Notes: a model not told the origin generated them from the letters alone. DNA of 34,834 nt from Acidobacteriota bacterium (GCA_017883185.1 JADGOB010000030.1:1-34834), one strand, 5' to 3'; positions 12,070-21,667 are shown, counted from the stretch's first letter. A program made the numbers and translations.

Positions 12070-12155
12070 GGCGGTTTCAACCGCCGGAGACCGTCCCGCC
12101 ACCCGAACTCCGGGGGTCGCTCCGTGGGCTTTGTGTCCTCCGTGGTGATCTGTCG
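12070..12155. repeat. Intergenic palindrome and short direct repeats before the VPS10-like gene
   Basis: A hairpin with perfect 7-base arms, GGCGGTT (12070-12076) and AACCGCC (12079-12085), with a 2-base loop, is followed by two nearby copies of TCCGTGG (in 12120-12145). The stretch 12044-12196 has no convincing gene. It looks like the repetitive intergenic DNA common in such genomes; no terminator T-run is present. Confidence 0.5.
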
Positions 12156-12196
12156 TGGACAGGACCGGCGGCACGGAGGTGAGATACACTGCGGGC

Positions 12197-15157
12197 ATGA
12201 GTTCATCACGCCGCCTCCTCGCCCTCACAGCCGCCATCCTCCTGTTCGCCGGGTTCACCCCGCTCGCGCAACGGGCACCGGTTCCCTCCGCGGCTCCGAA
12301 GGACCTGATGTCGGCCTGCTGCGGCGAACTGCACTACCGGATGATCGGACCGTTCCGGGGCGGGCGCACCAAGGCGGCATCAGGCGTGCCCGACCAGCCG
12401 AACGTGTTCTACGTGGGCGTCTGCAACGGCGGCGTGTGGAAGACGACGGACTACGGTCGCGTCTGGACGCCAGTCTTCGACGACCAGCCGACCGGCTCGA
12501 TTGGCGCGATCGCCGTCGCGCCGTCCGACGCGAATATCATCTACGTCGGCAGTGGCGAAGGGCTGCAGCGCCCGGACCTCTCCACCGGCGACGGCATCTA
12601 CAAATCGACCGATGCCGGCACGACATGGACCCATCTCGGCCTTCGGGACGGCCAGCAGATCCCGCAGATTGCCATCGATCCGAAAAACCCGAACCGCCTG
12701 TGGGTTGCCGTGCTCGGACACCCGTACGGTCCGAATGACGAGCGCGGCATCTTCCGGTCCCTCGATGGCGGCGTCACGTTCCAGAAGGTCCTCTTCAAGG
12801 ACGAGAACACGGGCGGCATCGACGTCGTCGTGGATCCGACGAATGCCGATATCGTCTATGCCGTGCTCTGGGAGGCCAGGCAGGCGCCGTGGGAGAACGG
12901 TGAGTTCAGCGGCCCGGGCAGCGGCCTCTACAAGTCCACCGACGGCGGCAGCACCTGGCGCGGCATCACGGCAGGCCTTCCGACGTTCGAGAAGGACAAC
13001 CTCGGGCGCATCGGCCTGGCCGTCGCCCCAAGCAACCCCCGGCGGGTGTTCGCCACGGTCCAGGCGGACCGCAACGGCGGCCTCTATCGGTCGGACGATG
13101 CCGGAGAGACGTGGACGCGGGTGAACGATGACCCGTTCGTCACCGAGCGCGGTGACGACTTCGCCGAGGTCAAGGTCGATCCGAAGAACCCGGACATCGT
13201 CTACACCGCGAGCATCGTGACTTGGAAGTCGGTGGACGGCGGGAAGACATTCTTGGCGCTGCGAGGCGCTCCGGGCGGCGACGACTATCACCGGCTCTGG
13301 ATCAACCCGAACCACCCCGACGTCATCCTGCTCGCGTCCGATCAGGGCGTGGTCATCACGGTCAACGGCGGCACAACCTGGAGTTCCTGGTACAACCAGC
13401 CGACCGCGCAGTTCTACCACGTCAGCACCGACAATGCGTTTCCGTATCGGGTCTGCGGCGGGCAGCAAGAGAGCGGATCGGCGTGCGTGTCGAGCCGTGG
13501 AGACGACGGGCGGATCACGTTCCGCGACTGGCACCCGGTAGGTGTCGAAGAGTACGGATACGTGGCGCCTGACCCGCTGGACCCGGACATCGTCTACGGC
13601 GGGAAGATCACCCGCTACGATCGCCGCAACGGCATGGTGCAGAACGTCTCGCCGGTGATCCTGCGCGGCGAGGGCAACGACGACCGCGTCATCCGCACCG
13701 AGCCGGTGCTCTTCTCACCGATCGATCCGAAGACATTGTACTTCGCGTCGAACGTCGTGTGGAAGACGACCGACGGCGGCCAGAACTGGACTGCGATCAG
13801 CACCGACCTGACGCGGCCGGACTGGGAGGCGCCGGCAAACGTCGGCAAGTACCGGGGCACGCCGGCCGCGAAGGCGACCAAACGCGGCGTCGTCTATACG
13901 CTGGCGCCGTCGCCGCTCGACATCAACCGGATCTGGGCCGGCACCGATGACGGCCTCATTCACCTGACCACGGACGGTGGGAAGACCTGGGCCAACGTGA
14001 CGCCGCCGGCGGTGACACCGTGGGCCAAGGTCTCGCTGATCGACGCGTCGCATTTCGACGCGAATACCGCCTACGCCGCGGTCAACGCGATCCGCCTCGA
14101 CGACCTGCGGCCCCACATCTACCGCACGCGCGACAGCGGACGGACCTGGACACATGTCACATCGGGCATCCCGGACGGGGGACCCGTCAACGCGGTACGC
14201 GAGGATCCGAAGCGGCGCGGCTTGTTGTTCGCGGGCACCGAGCAGGCGGTCTACGTGTCGTTCGATGATGGCGACCACTGGCAGTCGCTTCGGCTGAACA
14301 TGCCGGCATCGTCCATTCGTGATCTCATGGTGAAGGATGACGACCTGGTGGTCGCCACGCATGGCCGTTCGTTCTGGATCCTGGACGACATCACGCCGCT
14401 GCGCCAGGTGGAGGCCGCGGTGGTTGCAGCCGACGTCCACCTGTACAAGCCGCAGGAGACCTGGCGAGTGCAGTGGAGCAAGTACACGGACACTCCGCTG
14501 CCACCCGACGAACCGGCCGGCCAGAATCCGCCGGACGGCGCGGTCATCAACTACTGGCTCGAGACGGCCGCGTCGGGGCCGGTGGTCATCGAGATCCTGG
14601 ACGGACCCGGCCACGTGGTCCGCCGGTACTCGAGCGCCGACCCCGCGCCCCCGGTGAAGGACGTCGGCAACTGGCCGGCGTACTGGCAGCGTCCGGTCCG
14701 CGTGCCGTCCACCGCCGCGGGGATGCATCGGTTCGTGTGGGACCTGCACGACCCGCCGCCAAAGGCGTTCGACTTCTCCTACCCGATTTCGGCCACGCCG
14801 CGCGACACGGCGGTCGAGCCCAAGGGTCCGTGGGTGATGCCGGGCACGTACTCGGTCCGTCTCACCGTTGGCCGCGTCACTCAGACGCAGAGGTTGGTCG
14901 TGAAGATGGATCCACGGGTGAAGACGCCGCCAGACGACCTCGTCCGGCAGTACATCCTGTCGTCGCAGTTGTATGACGCGATTGGGCGGGTGCACGATGA
15001 GATTCAGCGGGCCGGCGCGCAAACGGCCGCCGCCGAGCCCCTGCGCCGCCTGCACGACCAACTGCTCAGAGTGTACGGCACGGTGCAGGAGGCCGACGTC
15101 GCGCCAACCGTTGCCGTGGTGTCGGCCGCGGAGACGTTGCTGAGACGGGTGAAGTAG
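12197..15157 (+). CDS. Exported VPS10/sortilin-like Asp-box beta-propeller protein
   Basis: A 986-residue protein with a signal peptide (SSSRRLLALTAAILLFAGF) and about eleven Asp-box-like repeats of the form S-x-D-x-G-x-T-W, for example KTTDYGRVW, KSTDAGTTW, KSTDGGSTW, RSDDAGETW, KTTDGGQNW and LTTDGGKTW. This is the layout of the ten-bladed VPS10/sortilin propeller. The C-terminal third has a beta-rich domain ending TYSVRLTVGRVTQTQRLVVKMDPR. Such proteins are abundant in Acidobacteriota and often labelled glycosyl hydrolase, but no sialidase active site is evident; binding of peptides or proteins outside the cell is the safer guess. ATG 12197 is chosen for its signal peptide; an in-frame GTG at 12179 lies inside the GGAGGTG stretch. 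Confidence 0.85.
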   Translation: MSSSRRLLALTAAILLFAGFTPLAQRAPVPSAAPKDLMSACCGELHYRMIGPFRGGRTKAASGVPDQPNVFYVGVCNGGVWKTTDYGRVWTPVFDDQPTGSIGAIAVAPSDANIIYVGSGEGLQRPDLSTGDGIYKSTDAGTTWTHLGLRDGQQIPQIAIDPKNPNRLWVAVLGHPYGPNDERGIFRSLDGGVTFQKVLFKDENTGGIDVVVDPTNADIVYAVLWEARQAPWENGEFSGPGSGLYKSTDGGSTWRGITAGLPTFEKDNLGRIGLAVAPSNPRRVFATVQADRNGGLYRSDDAGETWTRVNDDPFVTERGDDFAEVKVDPKNPDIVYTASIVTWKSVDGGKTFLALRGAPGGDDYHRLWINPNHPDVILLASDQGVVITVNGGTTWSSWYNQPTAQFYHVSTDNAFPYRVCGGQQESGSACVSSRGDDGRITFRDWHPVGVEEYGYVAPDPLDPDIVYGGKITRYDRRNGMVQNVSPVILRGEGNDDRVIRTEPVLFSPIDPKTLYFASNVVWKTTDGGQNWTAISTDLTRPDWEAPANVGKYRGTPAAKATKRGVVYTLAPSPLDINRIWAGTDDGLIHLTTDGGKTWANVTPPAVTPWAKVSLIDASHFDANTAYAAVNAIRLDDLRPHIYRTRDSGRTWTHVTSGIPDGGPVNAVREDPKRRGLLFAGTEQAVYVSFDDGDHWQSLRLNMPASSIRDLMVKDDDLVVATHGRSFWILDDITPLRQVEAAVVAADVHLYKPQETWRVQWSKYTDTPLPPDEPAGQNPPDGAVINYWLETAASGPVVIEILDGPGHVVRRYSSADPAPPVKDVGNWPAYWQRPVRVPSTAAGMHRFVWDLHDPPPKAFDFSYPISATPRDTAVEPKGPWVMPGTYSVRLTVGRVTQTQRLVVKMDPRVKTPPDDLVRQYILSSQLYDAIGRVHDEIQRAGAQTAAAEPLRRLHDQLLRVYGTVQEADVAPTVAVVSAAETLLRRVK

Positions 15158-17259: not shown

Positions 17260-17619
17260 TCAGGCGCCCGGCACCAGCTGCTTGGCGCGCGCCATGGCGA
17301 TGAGCGTCTCGAAGCGGCGCGCTTCAGCCTGCGCGACGTCCCGACCAAAAGCCGTCAGCCGGTAGTAACGGCGCCGCTCGTCGTCCAGGGCCGGATCCGG
17401 TCGCTCGGCCGATTCCTCGATCACGCCCTCGGTCACGAACCGGCGAACGAGCGCGTAGAGCGTGCCGGCGCTCAACCGCAAGTCCCCGGCGGTCCGGCGC
17501 TCGATCTCCTTGATGATCGCGTAGCCGTGGCGTTCGCCGTCGGCCAGCGCGATGAGCACGTGGAACATCGCCGGCGTGAGCGGCAGCAGCGTCTCGGGAT
17601 CGCGTCGTTTCGGTCGCAT
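17260..17619 (-). CDS. PadR-family transcriptional regulator
   Basis: A 119-residue PadR protein: an N-terminal winged helix beginning PLTPAMFHVLIALADGERHGYAIIKEIE (in part), with LRLSAGTLYALVRRFVTEGVIEE as recognition helix and wing, then ERRRYYRLTAFGRDVAQAE and a short dimerisation helix. PadR proteins of this size normally regulate the ADOP permease gene next door, which here starts 16 bases downstream but is broken. The promoter region holds a perfect palindrome overlapping the -10 box, so autorepression is likely. The gene itself looks intact. Confidence 0.92.
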   Translation of the reverse strand: MRPKRRDPETLLPLTPAMFHVLIALADGERHGYAIIKEIERRTAGDLRLSAGTLYALVRRFVTEGVIEESAERPDPALDDERRRYYRLTAFGRDVAQAEARRFETLIAMARAKQLVPGA

Positions 17620-17656: not shown

Positions 17657-17743
17657 TCTATCGCATGAGATGCCCTGGGCGTTCTGTGATAGCCTCTCCA
17701 CGCACCCGCCCCCGCCATTCCCGCTGACATTGAGGAGAACGCT

Positions 17744-19780
17744 GTGTCGATCCCCACGAAAAGGCCTGTCGGGTGGCTTCGCGCCATCGCGGTCGCTGCC
17801 CTCGGCGGGTGGCTCTGGCCGTCGACAGCTGCCGCTGTCGACTTCTCGAAGTACCACACATACCAGGAACTCTCTGCCGAGCTGAAAGCGCTTGTCGCGG
17901 CGAACCCGACCATCGCGAAGATCGCGTCGATTGGCAAGACGCGCGAGGGACGCGACATCTGGGCCATCGAGATCGCGAATCCCGCGGGCACTCCGGTCGA
18001 GCAGCGCCCGGCCCTCCTCGTGGCCGCCAACTTCGAGGGCGACCACGTGATCGGCAGCGAGCTGGCGCTATATCTCGTCGATTTCCTCGTCAAAGGTTAC
18101 GCGACAGACCCCGCCGTGAAGCAGCGGCTCGACAACCACGTGGTCTACGTGGTGCCGCGCGTGAACGCCGACGGCGCGGAACTGATGTTCGCGTCCGTGA
18201 AGAGCGGCCGGCGAACCAACGCGACGCCGTACGACGCCGACAACGACGGTCGGATGGACGAAGACGGCCCGGAAGACCTGAACAAGGACGGATTCATCAC
18301 GGTGATGCGCGTCAAGGACCCGAAGGGCCCGTTCATGATCAGCCCCGAGGATCCGCGGCTGATGAAGCGCGCCGACCCGGCCAAGGGCGAACCTGGAGGC
18401 TGGGCGCTCTACTGGGAGGGCCTCGACAAGGACAATGACGGGTTCATTGCCGAGGACGGGCCTGGCGGGGTCGATATCAACCGGAACTTCATGCACCAGT
18501 ATCCGTACTTCGAGCCCGACGCCGGCCGCTACATGGTGAGCGAGGCCGAAACGCGGGCGATGCTCGAGTTCGTGCTGAAGCACCGGAACATCGCGGCCAT
18601 CCTCACGTTCGGTGAGAGCGACAACCTGATCGTGACGCCGACGCGCCGCGGCGACCGCGCGGCCGCGAACCCGATCAATCTTCTCGAGTTCGCCAACCGC
18701 AGCCTTGCAGACGCACGGCGCGTGGGCCTCTTCCAGGACACGGGCGGCTTCGGCGGACGCGGCGGACGCGGCGGGCGGGGGGGTGGCGGCGGGATGGTCA
18801 TCATGGACGAGGGCGCGTTTCCCGGCGGCCGCGGCGGCGCGGCGGCGCAGCCCACGGGCCGCGCTGCGATGCCCGCGCAGCGCCCGAACACGACGATTGC
18901 GACGCTCGACTACGAATACTTCCGCGCCATCAGCGAGAAGTATCGCGAACTGACGGGCCTGCGCGCGACCGGGATCACGCGGACGCCTGCCGGCGCCTTC
19001 TTCGAATACGGCTACTACCAATTCGGCGTGCCATCGTTCTCGACGCCTGGCTGGGGCCTGCCCGGCGGCGGACGCCCGGCGGGGATGGGGATGGGCGCCG
19101 GAGCGCCGGCCGGCCCAGGCGGAGCAGCGGCCGGGGCAGCCTTGGCTGGTGCGCCAGCCGGCGTTGGTCAGCGTGGCGGCGGTGGCGCCCGCGGCGCGAT
19201 GGGCGGAGCGGCCGCCGATGCGGCATCAGCCGATGCCCCCGAAGGGATCGACCTGCGGCTCATTCAGTGGATGGACGCGGAAAAGATTGACGGCTTCGTC
19301 AAGTGGACGCCGTTCAAGCACCCGACACTCGGCGAGGTCGAGATCGGCGGCTTCAAGCCCTACCTCACCACCAACCCGCCGGCGGCGAAGATCGCCGAGC
19401 TCGGCGCATCGCACGCGAAGTTCGCGCTGTATCTCTCGTCGCTCTTCTCGAAGGTGAAGATCGCGAAAGCCGAAGTGACGGCTCTTGGCGCCGGCCTCTT
19501 CCGGATCAAGGCCGACATCGAGAACGCCGGCTTCCTGCCGACGGCCCTCTCCCAGGGCGCCCAGGCCCGCGCGGTGAAACCAGTCATGGTGCAACTCGGC
19601 GTCCCTCCCGACAGCATCGTGACGGGCAATGAGAAGACGAACCACATCCCCGCGCTCGCCGGGTCCGGATCCAGACAGTCGTTCGAGTGGGTGATCAAGG
19701 GCACGCCAGGATCGACCGTCACGTTGAAGGCCGTCTCGCAGAAGAGCGGCACCGACACCGCCACGCTGACACTGCGGTAG
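17744..19780 (+). CDS. M14-family peptidase-like protein lacking the zinc and catalytic residues
   Basis: A 678-residue exported relative of the M14 peptidase encoded just downstream. Both share the same fold markers: VPRVNADG, a Ca-loop-like insert (DADNDGRMDEDGPEDLNKDG), EGLDKDNDGFIAEDGPGG and DINRNF. The active site has changed. The HxxE zinc motif (HGNE in the neighbour) is E98-G-D-H101, so His and Glu are exchanged; the third zinc His is G290 in TFGES against TYHNN; the general-base Glu is P435 in SFSTPGW against SFSNELW. It also has two long Gly/Ala/Arg-rich inserts near residues 335-375 and 440-500. A non-catalytic binding or partner role is inferred. The start is GTG 17744 with GAGGAG six bases upstream. 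Confidence 0.85.
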   Translation: MSIPTKRPVGWLRAIAVAALGGWLWPSTAAAVDFSKYHTYQELSAELKALVAANPTIAKIASIGKTREGRDIWAIEIANPAGTPVEQRPALLVAANFEGDHVIGSELALYLVDFLVKGYATDPAVKQRLDNHVVYVVPRVNADGAELMFASVKSGRRTNATPYDADNDGRMDEDGPEDLNKDGFITVMRVKDPKGPFMISPEDPRLMKRADPAKGEPGGWALYWEGLDKDNDGFIAEDGPGGVDINRNFMHQYPYFEPDAGRYMVSEAETRAMLEFVLKHRNIAAILTFGESDNLIVTPTRRGDRAAANPINLLEFANRSLADARRVGLFQDTGGFGGRGGRGGRGGGGGMVIMDEGAFPGGRGGAAAQPTGRAAMPAQRPNTTIATLDYEYFRAISEKYRELTGLRATGITRTPAGAFFEYGYYQFGVPSFSTPGWGLPGGGRPAGMGMGAGAPAGPGGAAAGAALAGAPAGVGQRGGGGARGAMGGAAADAASADAPEGIDLRLIQWMDAEKIDGFVKWTPFKHPTLGEVEIGGFKPYLTTNPPAAKIAELGASHAKFALYLSSLFSKVKIAKAEVTALGAGLFRIKADIENAGFLPTALSQGAQARAVKPVMVQLGVPPDSIVTGNEKTNHIPALAGSGSRQSFEWVIKGTPGSTVTLKAVSQKSGTDTATLTLR

Positions 19781-19804
19781 GAGCCGCGTCACTAACGGAG
19801 AACG

Positions 19805-21667
19805 ATGATGAACAACCTCTGCAGGCTTACGACGGCCGCGGCCCTGCTGATGGCGGTCGCCGTCTTCACATCCCCGGGCGTGTCGGGCCAGGCGAAGCCA
19901 TCGCCGCAGGCCCACGCCGCGGGCAAGCCGGCCCAGACGCCGGCCAAGGCTGCGCCGAAAGACTGGACGCAGGCACCAAGCTCGGAGCGCCCCTTCAGGG
20001 TGCGTCTCGACTTCAACCGCTGGCACGACGTCGCCGAACTCCAGGCGGACATGAAAACGCTGGAGAAGGCGTATCCGAAGTTCCTCAAGTACATCGTGCT
20101 GGGCAAGAGCTACGCCGGACGGGACATCGCCGGGATCATCGTCAACAACCCGGACACAGGTCCCGATACCGCCAAGGCCGCGATGTACATCGAGGCCAAC
20201 ATTCACGGGAACGAGATCCAGGGCGGCGAGATCTGCATCTACACGATCTGGTACCTGATGGAGAACTACGGCAAGATCGATCGGATCACGAAGCTCGTAG
20301 ACGAGCGCGCCTTCTACATCGTCCCGACCGTGAACCCGGACGGCCGCGACTACTTCATGCACGGGCCGGGCGGCAACGCGCGCAGCGGCCACATGCCGGT
20401 GGATGACGACAACGACTACCAGTTCGACGAGGACGGTCCGGAAGATCTGAACGGCAACGGGATCATCGAGCAGATCCGGAAGTACGTGCCCGGCCAGGGG
20501 AACTACAAGAAGAGCACCGTGGACCCGCGGGTCATGGAGCCGGTCAAGCCGGGCGAAGTGGGCGACTACATCGTGCTCGGTCAGGAAGGGATCGATCACG
20601 ACGGCGATGGCCGCGTCGCCGAAGACGGCCCGGGCAGCTACGACCCGAATCGCAACTTCGCATCCGACTGGCAGCCGAACTACATCCAGAGCGGCGCCAT
20701 GGACTATCCGTTCCAGTTGCCGGAAGCCAAGGCGGTCAACGATTTCTGGATGTCGCACCCGAACATCGCTGGCCTCCAGACGTATCACAACAACGGCGGG
20801 ATGATCCTGCGCAGCCCGGGCGCGGAAACGGCCGGCGAGTATCCGGCGTCAGACGTGCGCGCCTACGACGAACTGGGCCGGAATGCCGTGCGGATGCTCC
20901 CGTTCTATCGCTACCTGGTGATCTGGAGCGGCCTCTACACGGTGCACGGCGGCGTGACCGATTGGGCCAACGACGGCCTCGGGATCCTGTCGTTCTCCAA
21001 CGAGCTCTGGAACAACGGCCAGTACTTCACCAGCCCGGAGCTGAAGGAGCAGCAGAAGGATCCGAACAGCCCGATCTCGCCGCGCGTGGCGAACTACTTC
21101 TTCAACGACTTCCTCGAGTTTGGCGACGAGCTGACCGAGTGGAAGGAGTTCGACCACCCGCAGTTCGGCAAGGTCGAGATTGGCGGCGCGTTCAAGAAAA
21201 CGTTCGGGCGGGTACCGCCGCGCTTCATGAACGAAGAACTGTGCCACCGCAACATGGCGTGGACGCTGTATCAGGCCGACGAAATGCCGAAGGTGACCCT
21301 CGGCGAGTCGAAGGTCGAAAAGCTCGGCGACGGCATCTTCAAGGTCTGGCTGGACCTGAGCAACCCGAAGGTCGCCCCGACGATCCTCGCCAAGGCCGCG
21401 ATGAACAACGTCGTTCCGCCCGACCTGCTGACGGTTGATGGCAAGGGCGTCGAGGTCATCTCGGCAAGTTGGGTGGCTGACAAGTGGCGCCCTGCCGTCG
21501 CCCAGTCGATCGACCAGAAGGATCTGAAGCGCATCATGCTGCGCAACGGCCTGGCCGGCCGCACCACCCGGACGATCCAGTATCTGGTCAAGGGCACCGG
21601 CCCCCTCACCGTGAAGTACGCCAGCCTTAAGGGCGGCACCGCCGAAAAGACCATCCCGCTGCAGTAG
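19805..21667 (+). CDS. Exported M14-family zinc carboxypeptidase
   Basis: A 620-residue peptidase with signal peptide (LCRLTTAAALLMAVAVFTS) and a complete M14 site: zinc ligands H134 and E137 in ANIHGNEIQGGE, H328 in QTYHNNGG, and general base E400 in SFSNELW. PTVNPDGRD and DPNRNF are also conserved. A Ca-loop-like insert (DDDNDYQFDEDGPEDLNGNG) and GIDHDGDGRVAEDGPG are shared with the upstream paralogue. The C-terminal part is a beta-rich domain of unknown role. The family removes C-terminal amino acids or acts on peptidoglycan-type peptides; the substrate is not clear here. ATG 19805 follows the paralogue's stop by 24 bases with GGAG upstream, so the two are probably made together. Confidence 0.9.
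   Translation: MMNNLCRLTTAAALLMAVAVFTSPGVSGQAKPSPQAHAAGKPAQTPAKAAPKDWTQAPSSERPFRVRLDFNRWHDVAELQADMKTLEKAYPKFLKYIVLGKSYAGRDIAGIIVNNPDTGPDTAKAAMYIEANIHGNEIQGGEICIYTIWYLMENYGKIDRITKLVDERAFYIVPTVNPDGRDYFMHGPGGNARSGHMPVDDDNDYQFDEDGPEDLNGNGIIEQIRKYVPGQGNYKKSTVDPRVMEPVKPGEVGDYIVLGQEGIDHDGDGRVAEDGPGSYDPNRNFASDWQPNYIQSGAMDYPFQLPEAKAVNDFWMSHPNIAGLQTYHNNGGMILRSPGAETAGEYPASDVRAYDELGRNAVRMLPFYRYLVIWSGLYTVHGGVTDWANDGLGILSFSNELWNNGQYFTSPELKEQQKDPNSPISPRVANYFFNDFLEFGDELTEWKEFDHPQFGKVEIGGAFKKTFGRVPPRFMNEELCHRNMAWTLYQADEMPKVTLGESKVEKLGDGIFKVWLDLSNPKVAPTILAKAAMNNVVPPDLLTVDGKGVEVISASWVADKWRPAVAQSIDQKDLKRIMLRNGLAGRTTRTIQYLVKGTGPLTVKYASLKGGTAEKTIPLQ

Follow-up and report, generated by a model that had tools for sequence, protein, structure and literature searches.

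A conserved bacterial pairing of an M14 pseudo-peptidase with an intact M14 carboxypeptidase

The gene pair and its products

The DNA analysed here, referred to as the window, is a stretch of 34,834 nucleotides from an Acidobacteriota bacterium (GCA_017883185.1, JADGOB010000030.1), within which two adjoining plus-strand genes encode homologous proteins of the M14 peptidase family. The first, the A gene (17744..19780), starts with a GTG codon at 17744 and encodes P0001, an M14 pseudo-peptidase of 678 amino acids. It is preceded by a ribosome-binding site, GAGGAGA, that can be read directly at 17732..17738. The second, the B gene (19805..21667), encodes P0002, an M14 carboxypeptidase of 620 amino acids with an intact catalytic set, and is separated from the stop codon of A by a spacer of 24 nucleotides (19781..19804). 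A preliminary description of this sequence had noted the intact frame of the upstream gene, its ordinary ribosome-binding site and the 24 bases to an active partner, all of which the coordinates and the GAGGAGA element confirm. Directly upstream of the pair, and divergent from it, lies a PadR-type regulator gene on the minus strand (17260-17619), a type of gene that does not recur across the other loci, and further upstream is a large protein with sortilin/Vps10 and BNR repeats (12155-15157). Directly downstream is a convergent gene for a serine hydrolase of the beta-lactamase family (PF00144; 21689-22960).

Relatives of the two proteins were collected to give a set of 102 proteins of the dead A type and 95 of the live B type, the sources of which are Acidobacteriota, Bacteroidota, Gemmatimonadota, Planctomycetota and other MAGs. 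Both window proteins pass the cut-off of the Peptidase_M14 model (PF00246), P0001 with an E value of 9.5e-33 (114.5 bits, where the curated cut-off is 21.6) and P0002 with 6.6e-42, while the NCBIfam models gave no family match for either. An identity as M16B peptidases was rejected, as the pair is M14 by Pfam and by fold, with neither the M16 fold nor its inverted HxxEH motif. An AlphaFold2 model of P0001, built on the 102-sequence alignment, has a mean pLDDT of 86.5 and a pTM of 0.87, and its confidence is low only at the very N-terminal end and over two Gly-rich loops, 335-370 and 445-499. With VIA-align it superposes on carboxypeptidase T (3prt) with a Z score of 32.2 over 288 residues and an rmsd of 2.9. 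The model of P0002 (pLDDT 88.5) reaches a Z score of 38.9 to carboxypeptidases A and T. The retention of the fold landmarks in the upstream protein, as previously claimed, is thus borne out by both the Pfam match and the model, and A is confidently predicted to comprise a full M14 domain followed by a C-terminal beta-sandwich rather than to be a decayed fragment. The beta-sandwich (19256..19777) is delimited by predicted secondary structure and profile alignment, and is common to P0002. Hydrophobic N-termini resembling signal peptides are found, by a crude test, in P0001, P0002, 94 of the 102 A-types and 93 of the 95 B-types, which suggests that both proteins are exported.

Active-site positions in A and B

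The difference between the two proteins lies in their catalytic residues, which are numbered here according to bovine CPA. In P0001 the place where the zinc motif HxxE is expected is taken by E98-G-D-H101 (18035..18046), such that E98 stands at the position of His69 and H101 at that of Glu72. The third zinc ligand, His196, is replaced by G290 (18611..18613) and the catalytic Glu270 by P435 (19046..19048), and Tyr248 has also gone, with R413 in its place (18980..18982). What P0001 does keep is the carboxylate-binding Asn144-Arg145 pair, as N246-R247 (18479..18484), and probably also Arg127. P0002, on the other hand, carries HGNE (20204..20215), which supplies His69 and Glu72, together with H328 (20786..20788) as the third zinc ligand and E400 (21002..21004) as Glu270, the last two being present in all 95 B-types. 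It also has Arg127, Asn144-Arg145 and Tyr248 and is, by its sequence, a predicted active enzyme.

These assignments rest on three multiple alignments, in which FEGDH of A falls on IHGNE of B, TFGESDN on TYHNNGG and SFSTPGW on SFSNELW, and the same equivalences are returned by an independent profile-profile alignment of the 102 A-types against the 95 B-types (probability 100, E 4e-103). The zinc triad and catalytic Glu are retained by none of the 102 A-types, whereas the complete set is present in 94 of the 95 B-types, a difference that is far beyond chance. The loss of all four catalytic positions from P0001, as first described, is therefore upheld by the alignments and extends to its relatives. 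The one departure among the B-types (L194:2-1771, at a contig start) has NGNE, with Asn for the first zinc His, and is otherwise intact.

Within the A-types the substituted positions follow distinct trends. The His69 position is E or D in 92 of the 102 proteins and the His196 position G or S in 100, and Glu270 is replaced by D or P in 87; the Glu72 position is H in 58 and otherwise V, Q, R and others, and E291 is variable. The acidic residue at the His69 position (18035-18037 in the window) persists even in A-types that have lost the Asn-Arg pair. Outside the active site, two acidic DxDxDG loops, presumed from their sequence to be Ca2+ sites, are shared by A and B and are near-invariant in both. 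In P0001 they span residues 164-183 (18233..18292) and 225-242 (18416..18469), and across the A-types their 12 loop residues have a mean identity of 0.99.

Three A subfamilies can be distinguished by motif. The first, A-I, is that of the window and has EGDH/NRNF/FGES/STPGW, with Pro at the Glu270 position in 41 of its 44 members, where other A-types mostly have Asp. A-II has EGxHLxG/NRNFP/FSTEN/SxDLW, and A-III has EGTVPIS/xGxxFP/FGxxNFC/SxxDFW and has lost the Asn-Arg pair. The genome of the window holds, in addition to the A-I pair described here, an A-III-like pair on another contig (C354). In all, this genome has 21 Peptidase_M14 matches, some of which are two pieces of one gene, and at least three tandem pairs.

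Distribution, pairing and descent

How widely, and how faithfully, is the dead homologue kept beside the live one? A scan of GTDB contigs with P0001 gave 22 relatives, the MAG labels of which include Acidobacteriota, Aminicenantes, Bacteroidetes, Gemmatimonadetes, Planctomycetota, Deferribacteres and others. In a sample of 396 Acidobacteriota genomes there are 63 A matches, spread over 56 genomes, and 61 B matches. More A-types were found in the phyla of a Bacteroidales MAG and a Gemmatimonadetes MAG. Another 18 regions, the majority of them from these same phyla, were inspected, and every one is an A-B pair. Two A-type genes (L120 and L164, on G347 C110 and G212 C28) contain in-frame TAG stops, which are either sequencing errors or local decay.

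At every locus with two nearly full-length genes (90 of 90), B follows directly after A on the same strand, so that the pairing of the variant with an HxxE copy holds in other genomes and across phyla. The gap between the two has a median of about 10 nucleotides, and about one third of the pairs were scored as 4-nucleotide overlaps, a count that is approximate since the heuristic choice of start codons favours closeness. Overlaps of this length are typical of translational coupling. Among the 396 Acidobacteriota genomes, five A and three B matches have no adjacent partner match, but all eight lie at contig ends and a fragment of the partner is visible in two of them. Only one A gene (L028:4956-6857) is truly solo, and the MAG in which this additional paralog lies carries an ordinary pair as well. 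The collected loci contain no solo B, the apparent cases being either contig ends or members of other M14 groups with HAGE or HSGE (L189-L191, L195). Clustering of the flanking frames revealed no third gene common to the neighbourhoods beyond close relatives; the clusters that did appear consisted in the main of genes of close relatives and of artefactual frames lying antisense to, or out of frame with, the pair itself, and were rejected as shared neighbours. With no further gene shared, the unit is A plus B.

In a FastTree phylogeny of 214 M14 proteins, which includes no metazoan sequences, all 102 A-types fall into one clade (support 1.0) and all 95 B-types into another (0.998), and this arrangement suggests that the active site was lost only once, in the ancestor of A. 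A would accordingly descend from an M14 enzyme that lost its zinc ligands, its base and its substrate tyrosine once, long ago. Patristic distances in A and B, compared over 90 pairs, correlate with an r of 0.91, where the best of 2000 permutations gave 0.16; this correlation, computed without a control gene, shows joint inheritance and does not by itself show interaction. The evolutionary rate of A is about 1.34 times that of B, and the dN/dS of A (Nei-Gojobori) is 0.08-0.29, mostly only slightly higher than that of the partner B. A is under purifying selection and is no pseudogene. The suggestion in the preliminary description that the upstream gene has been selected for a non-catalytic role gains support from these dN/dS values, from the age and monophyly of the family and from its constant HxxE partner across phyla, and neither of the outcomes named there as counting against it, metal ligands elsewhere in the upstream protein or an unconserved pairing, was found.

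The role of the pseudo-peptidase

The best explanation for these observations is that A and B together probably make up one unit, an exported carboxypeptidase of two proteins, in which A is a dedicated pseudo-peptidase partner and most likely the subunit of a complex. B would be the zinc carboxypeptidase of the unit, and A, as a subunit of an A-B complex that probably takes the form of a heterodimer, would serve the folding, stability or substrate access of B. A structural or regulatory partnership with B is favoured over catalysis, a rearranged metal site or general capture because what all A-types have in common is their fold, their acidic loops and their partner. The M16B pairs, in which an adjacent homologue that lacks the zinc motif completes the active enzyme (PMC11266112, PMC12731061), are the model from which we infer the heterodimeric exported enzyme, the physical association of A with B and the contribution of A to B. 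Against the reading as a unit stand the solo A paralog, the faster evolution of A than of B and the absence of any natural A-B fusion among the collected frames. The broader proposal would make this a widespread, obligately two-gene M14 carboxypeptidase, the counterpart within M14 of the M16B alpha/beta enzymes, in which the zinc-less homologue is a required subunit and which occurs in several phyla, in at least three subfamilies and sometimes as two copies per genome; we give it about an even chance.

An alternative is that the secreted A captures substrate, holding peptide C-termini by means of its Asn-Arg pair and passing them to B with no stable complex being formed. The A-I subfamily looks suited to such a task, with Asn144 in 41 and Arg145 in 42 of its 44 members, R or K at the Arg127 position in 36 and, where Tyr248 would be expected, a new Arg in 34, and with conservation of the Asn144, Arg145 and Tyr248 columns above the A-I median. 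However, the other 58 A-types keep Asn144 in only 26 cases and Arg145 in 27, and have mostly lost Arg127, yet are paired just as strictly. Since the Asn-Arg pair is missing from many equally paired A-types, capture is not the general function of A, and as an explanation of the pair it is unlikely. The substrate capture put forward in the preliminary description thus remains plausible for the subfamily of the window, members of which may bind peptide C-termini, but does not carry over to the many A-types without Asn144-Arg145.

It is rather improbable that A is an inhibitor or a zymogen-like keeper that blocks the active site of B until release. An inhibitor or a secretion chaperone could well be encoded in this way, as the leading gene of an invariable 1:1 pair, but the retention of a whole M14 catalytic-domain fold, of the C-terminal domain and of the acidic loops is more than such a task needs, and no prodomain-like element was recognised in A. 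Slighter still is the chance that A has an independent extracellular role in binding or structure and is merely co-inherited with B, a reading in line with the existence of the solo paralog at L028, although simple co-inheritance does not explain the strict adjacency and order over several phyla or the lack of solo B genes. The suggestion that the exchanged Glu and His bind a different metal, making A a metalloenzyme with a rearranged site (E98/H101 and others), has next to no probability: the acid at the His69 position (92 of 102) fits it, but only 58 A-types have H as the second ligand, 100 have G or S as the third, G290 is unable to bind metal, E291 varies and P or D stands in for the base, so that alternative metal ligands in A are rejected on conservation.

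The nearest precedents for the preferred reading, a complex of A with B, are the M16B alpha/beta peptidases, represented by the mitochondrial processing peptidase and, in bacteria, by SPH2681/SPH2682, TTHA1264/TTHA1265 and AlbE/AlbF; TTHA1264 shows no activity by itself and pairs with the product of its neighbouring gene in a stable heterodimer (PMC11266112, PMC12731061). The likeness lies in two homologous subunits of which only one has the zinc motif and, in bacterial M16B, in neighbouring genes. The M16B enzymes, however, are clamshell endopeptidases of an unrelated fold, whereas the pair described here has M14 carboxypeptidase folds and would form a putative complex.

Within M14 itself, CPD domain III, CPXM1, CPXM2 and AEBP1/ACLP also have the fold without the catalytic residues and act non-catalytically, and CPD combines active and inactive M14 domains within one chain (PMC11266112). 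These proteins are metazoan and differ from A in their substitutions, His69 being present in all four and Glu72 in most of them; A is a separate bacterial gene. The fungal Ecm14 is likewise a secreted M14 protein, judged inactive (PMC7706225; residue table in PMC11266112). It differs from A in that it keeps the zinc ligands, with K in place of Glu270 and H in place of Arg145, and in that yeast, where it is the only M14 member, offers it no active M14 partner. Both A (Z 32.2) and B (Z 38.9) have their best or joint-best match, in structure and in sequence, in carboxypeptidase T of Thermoactinomyces vulgaris, but that protein is a single active enzyme with a shorter chain and no paired pseudo-copy.

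A review of metallopeptidase pseudoenzymes lists M14 cases only from vertebrates, fly and fungi (PMC11266112). In the open-access literature neither a bacterial M14 pseudo/active pair nor an annotated family for one was found, and an earlier description may exist elsewhere. The design of an active/pseudo pair is already known from another family, M16B, and its bacterial M14 version appears to be new. M14 carboxypeptidases are textbook single-chain enzymes. The pairing, which descent or joint transfer has maintained in several phyla, would show active/pseudo pairs to exist among M14 enzymes too, and it offers a clean natural system in which to study the contribution of a dead paralogue to its live counterpart. 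Because Pfam labels both halves as zinc carboxypeptidase, the dead half is likely to be counted as an enzyme in surveys of soil proteolysis.

A different M14 tandem is present in the same genome on a further contig (C138; L009:3792-7626). Its downstream copy is intact. In the upstream copy HGNE has become HGAT and the catalytic Glu is replaced by Q, but the third His is retained. An upstream copy of this type occurs in one other genome among 193 in the class (G090 C5), there too beside an M14 match, and the tandem has the appearance of another, less common dead/live pairing within M14.
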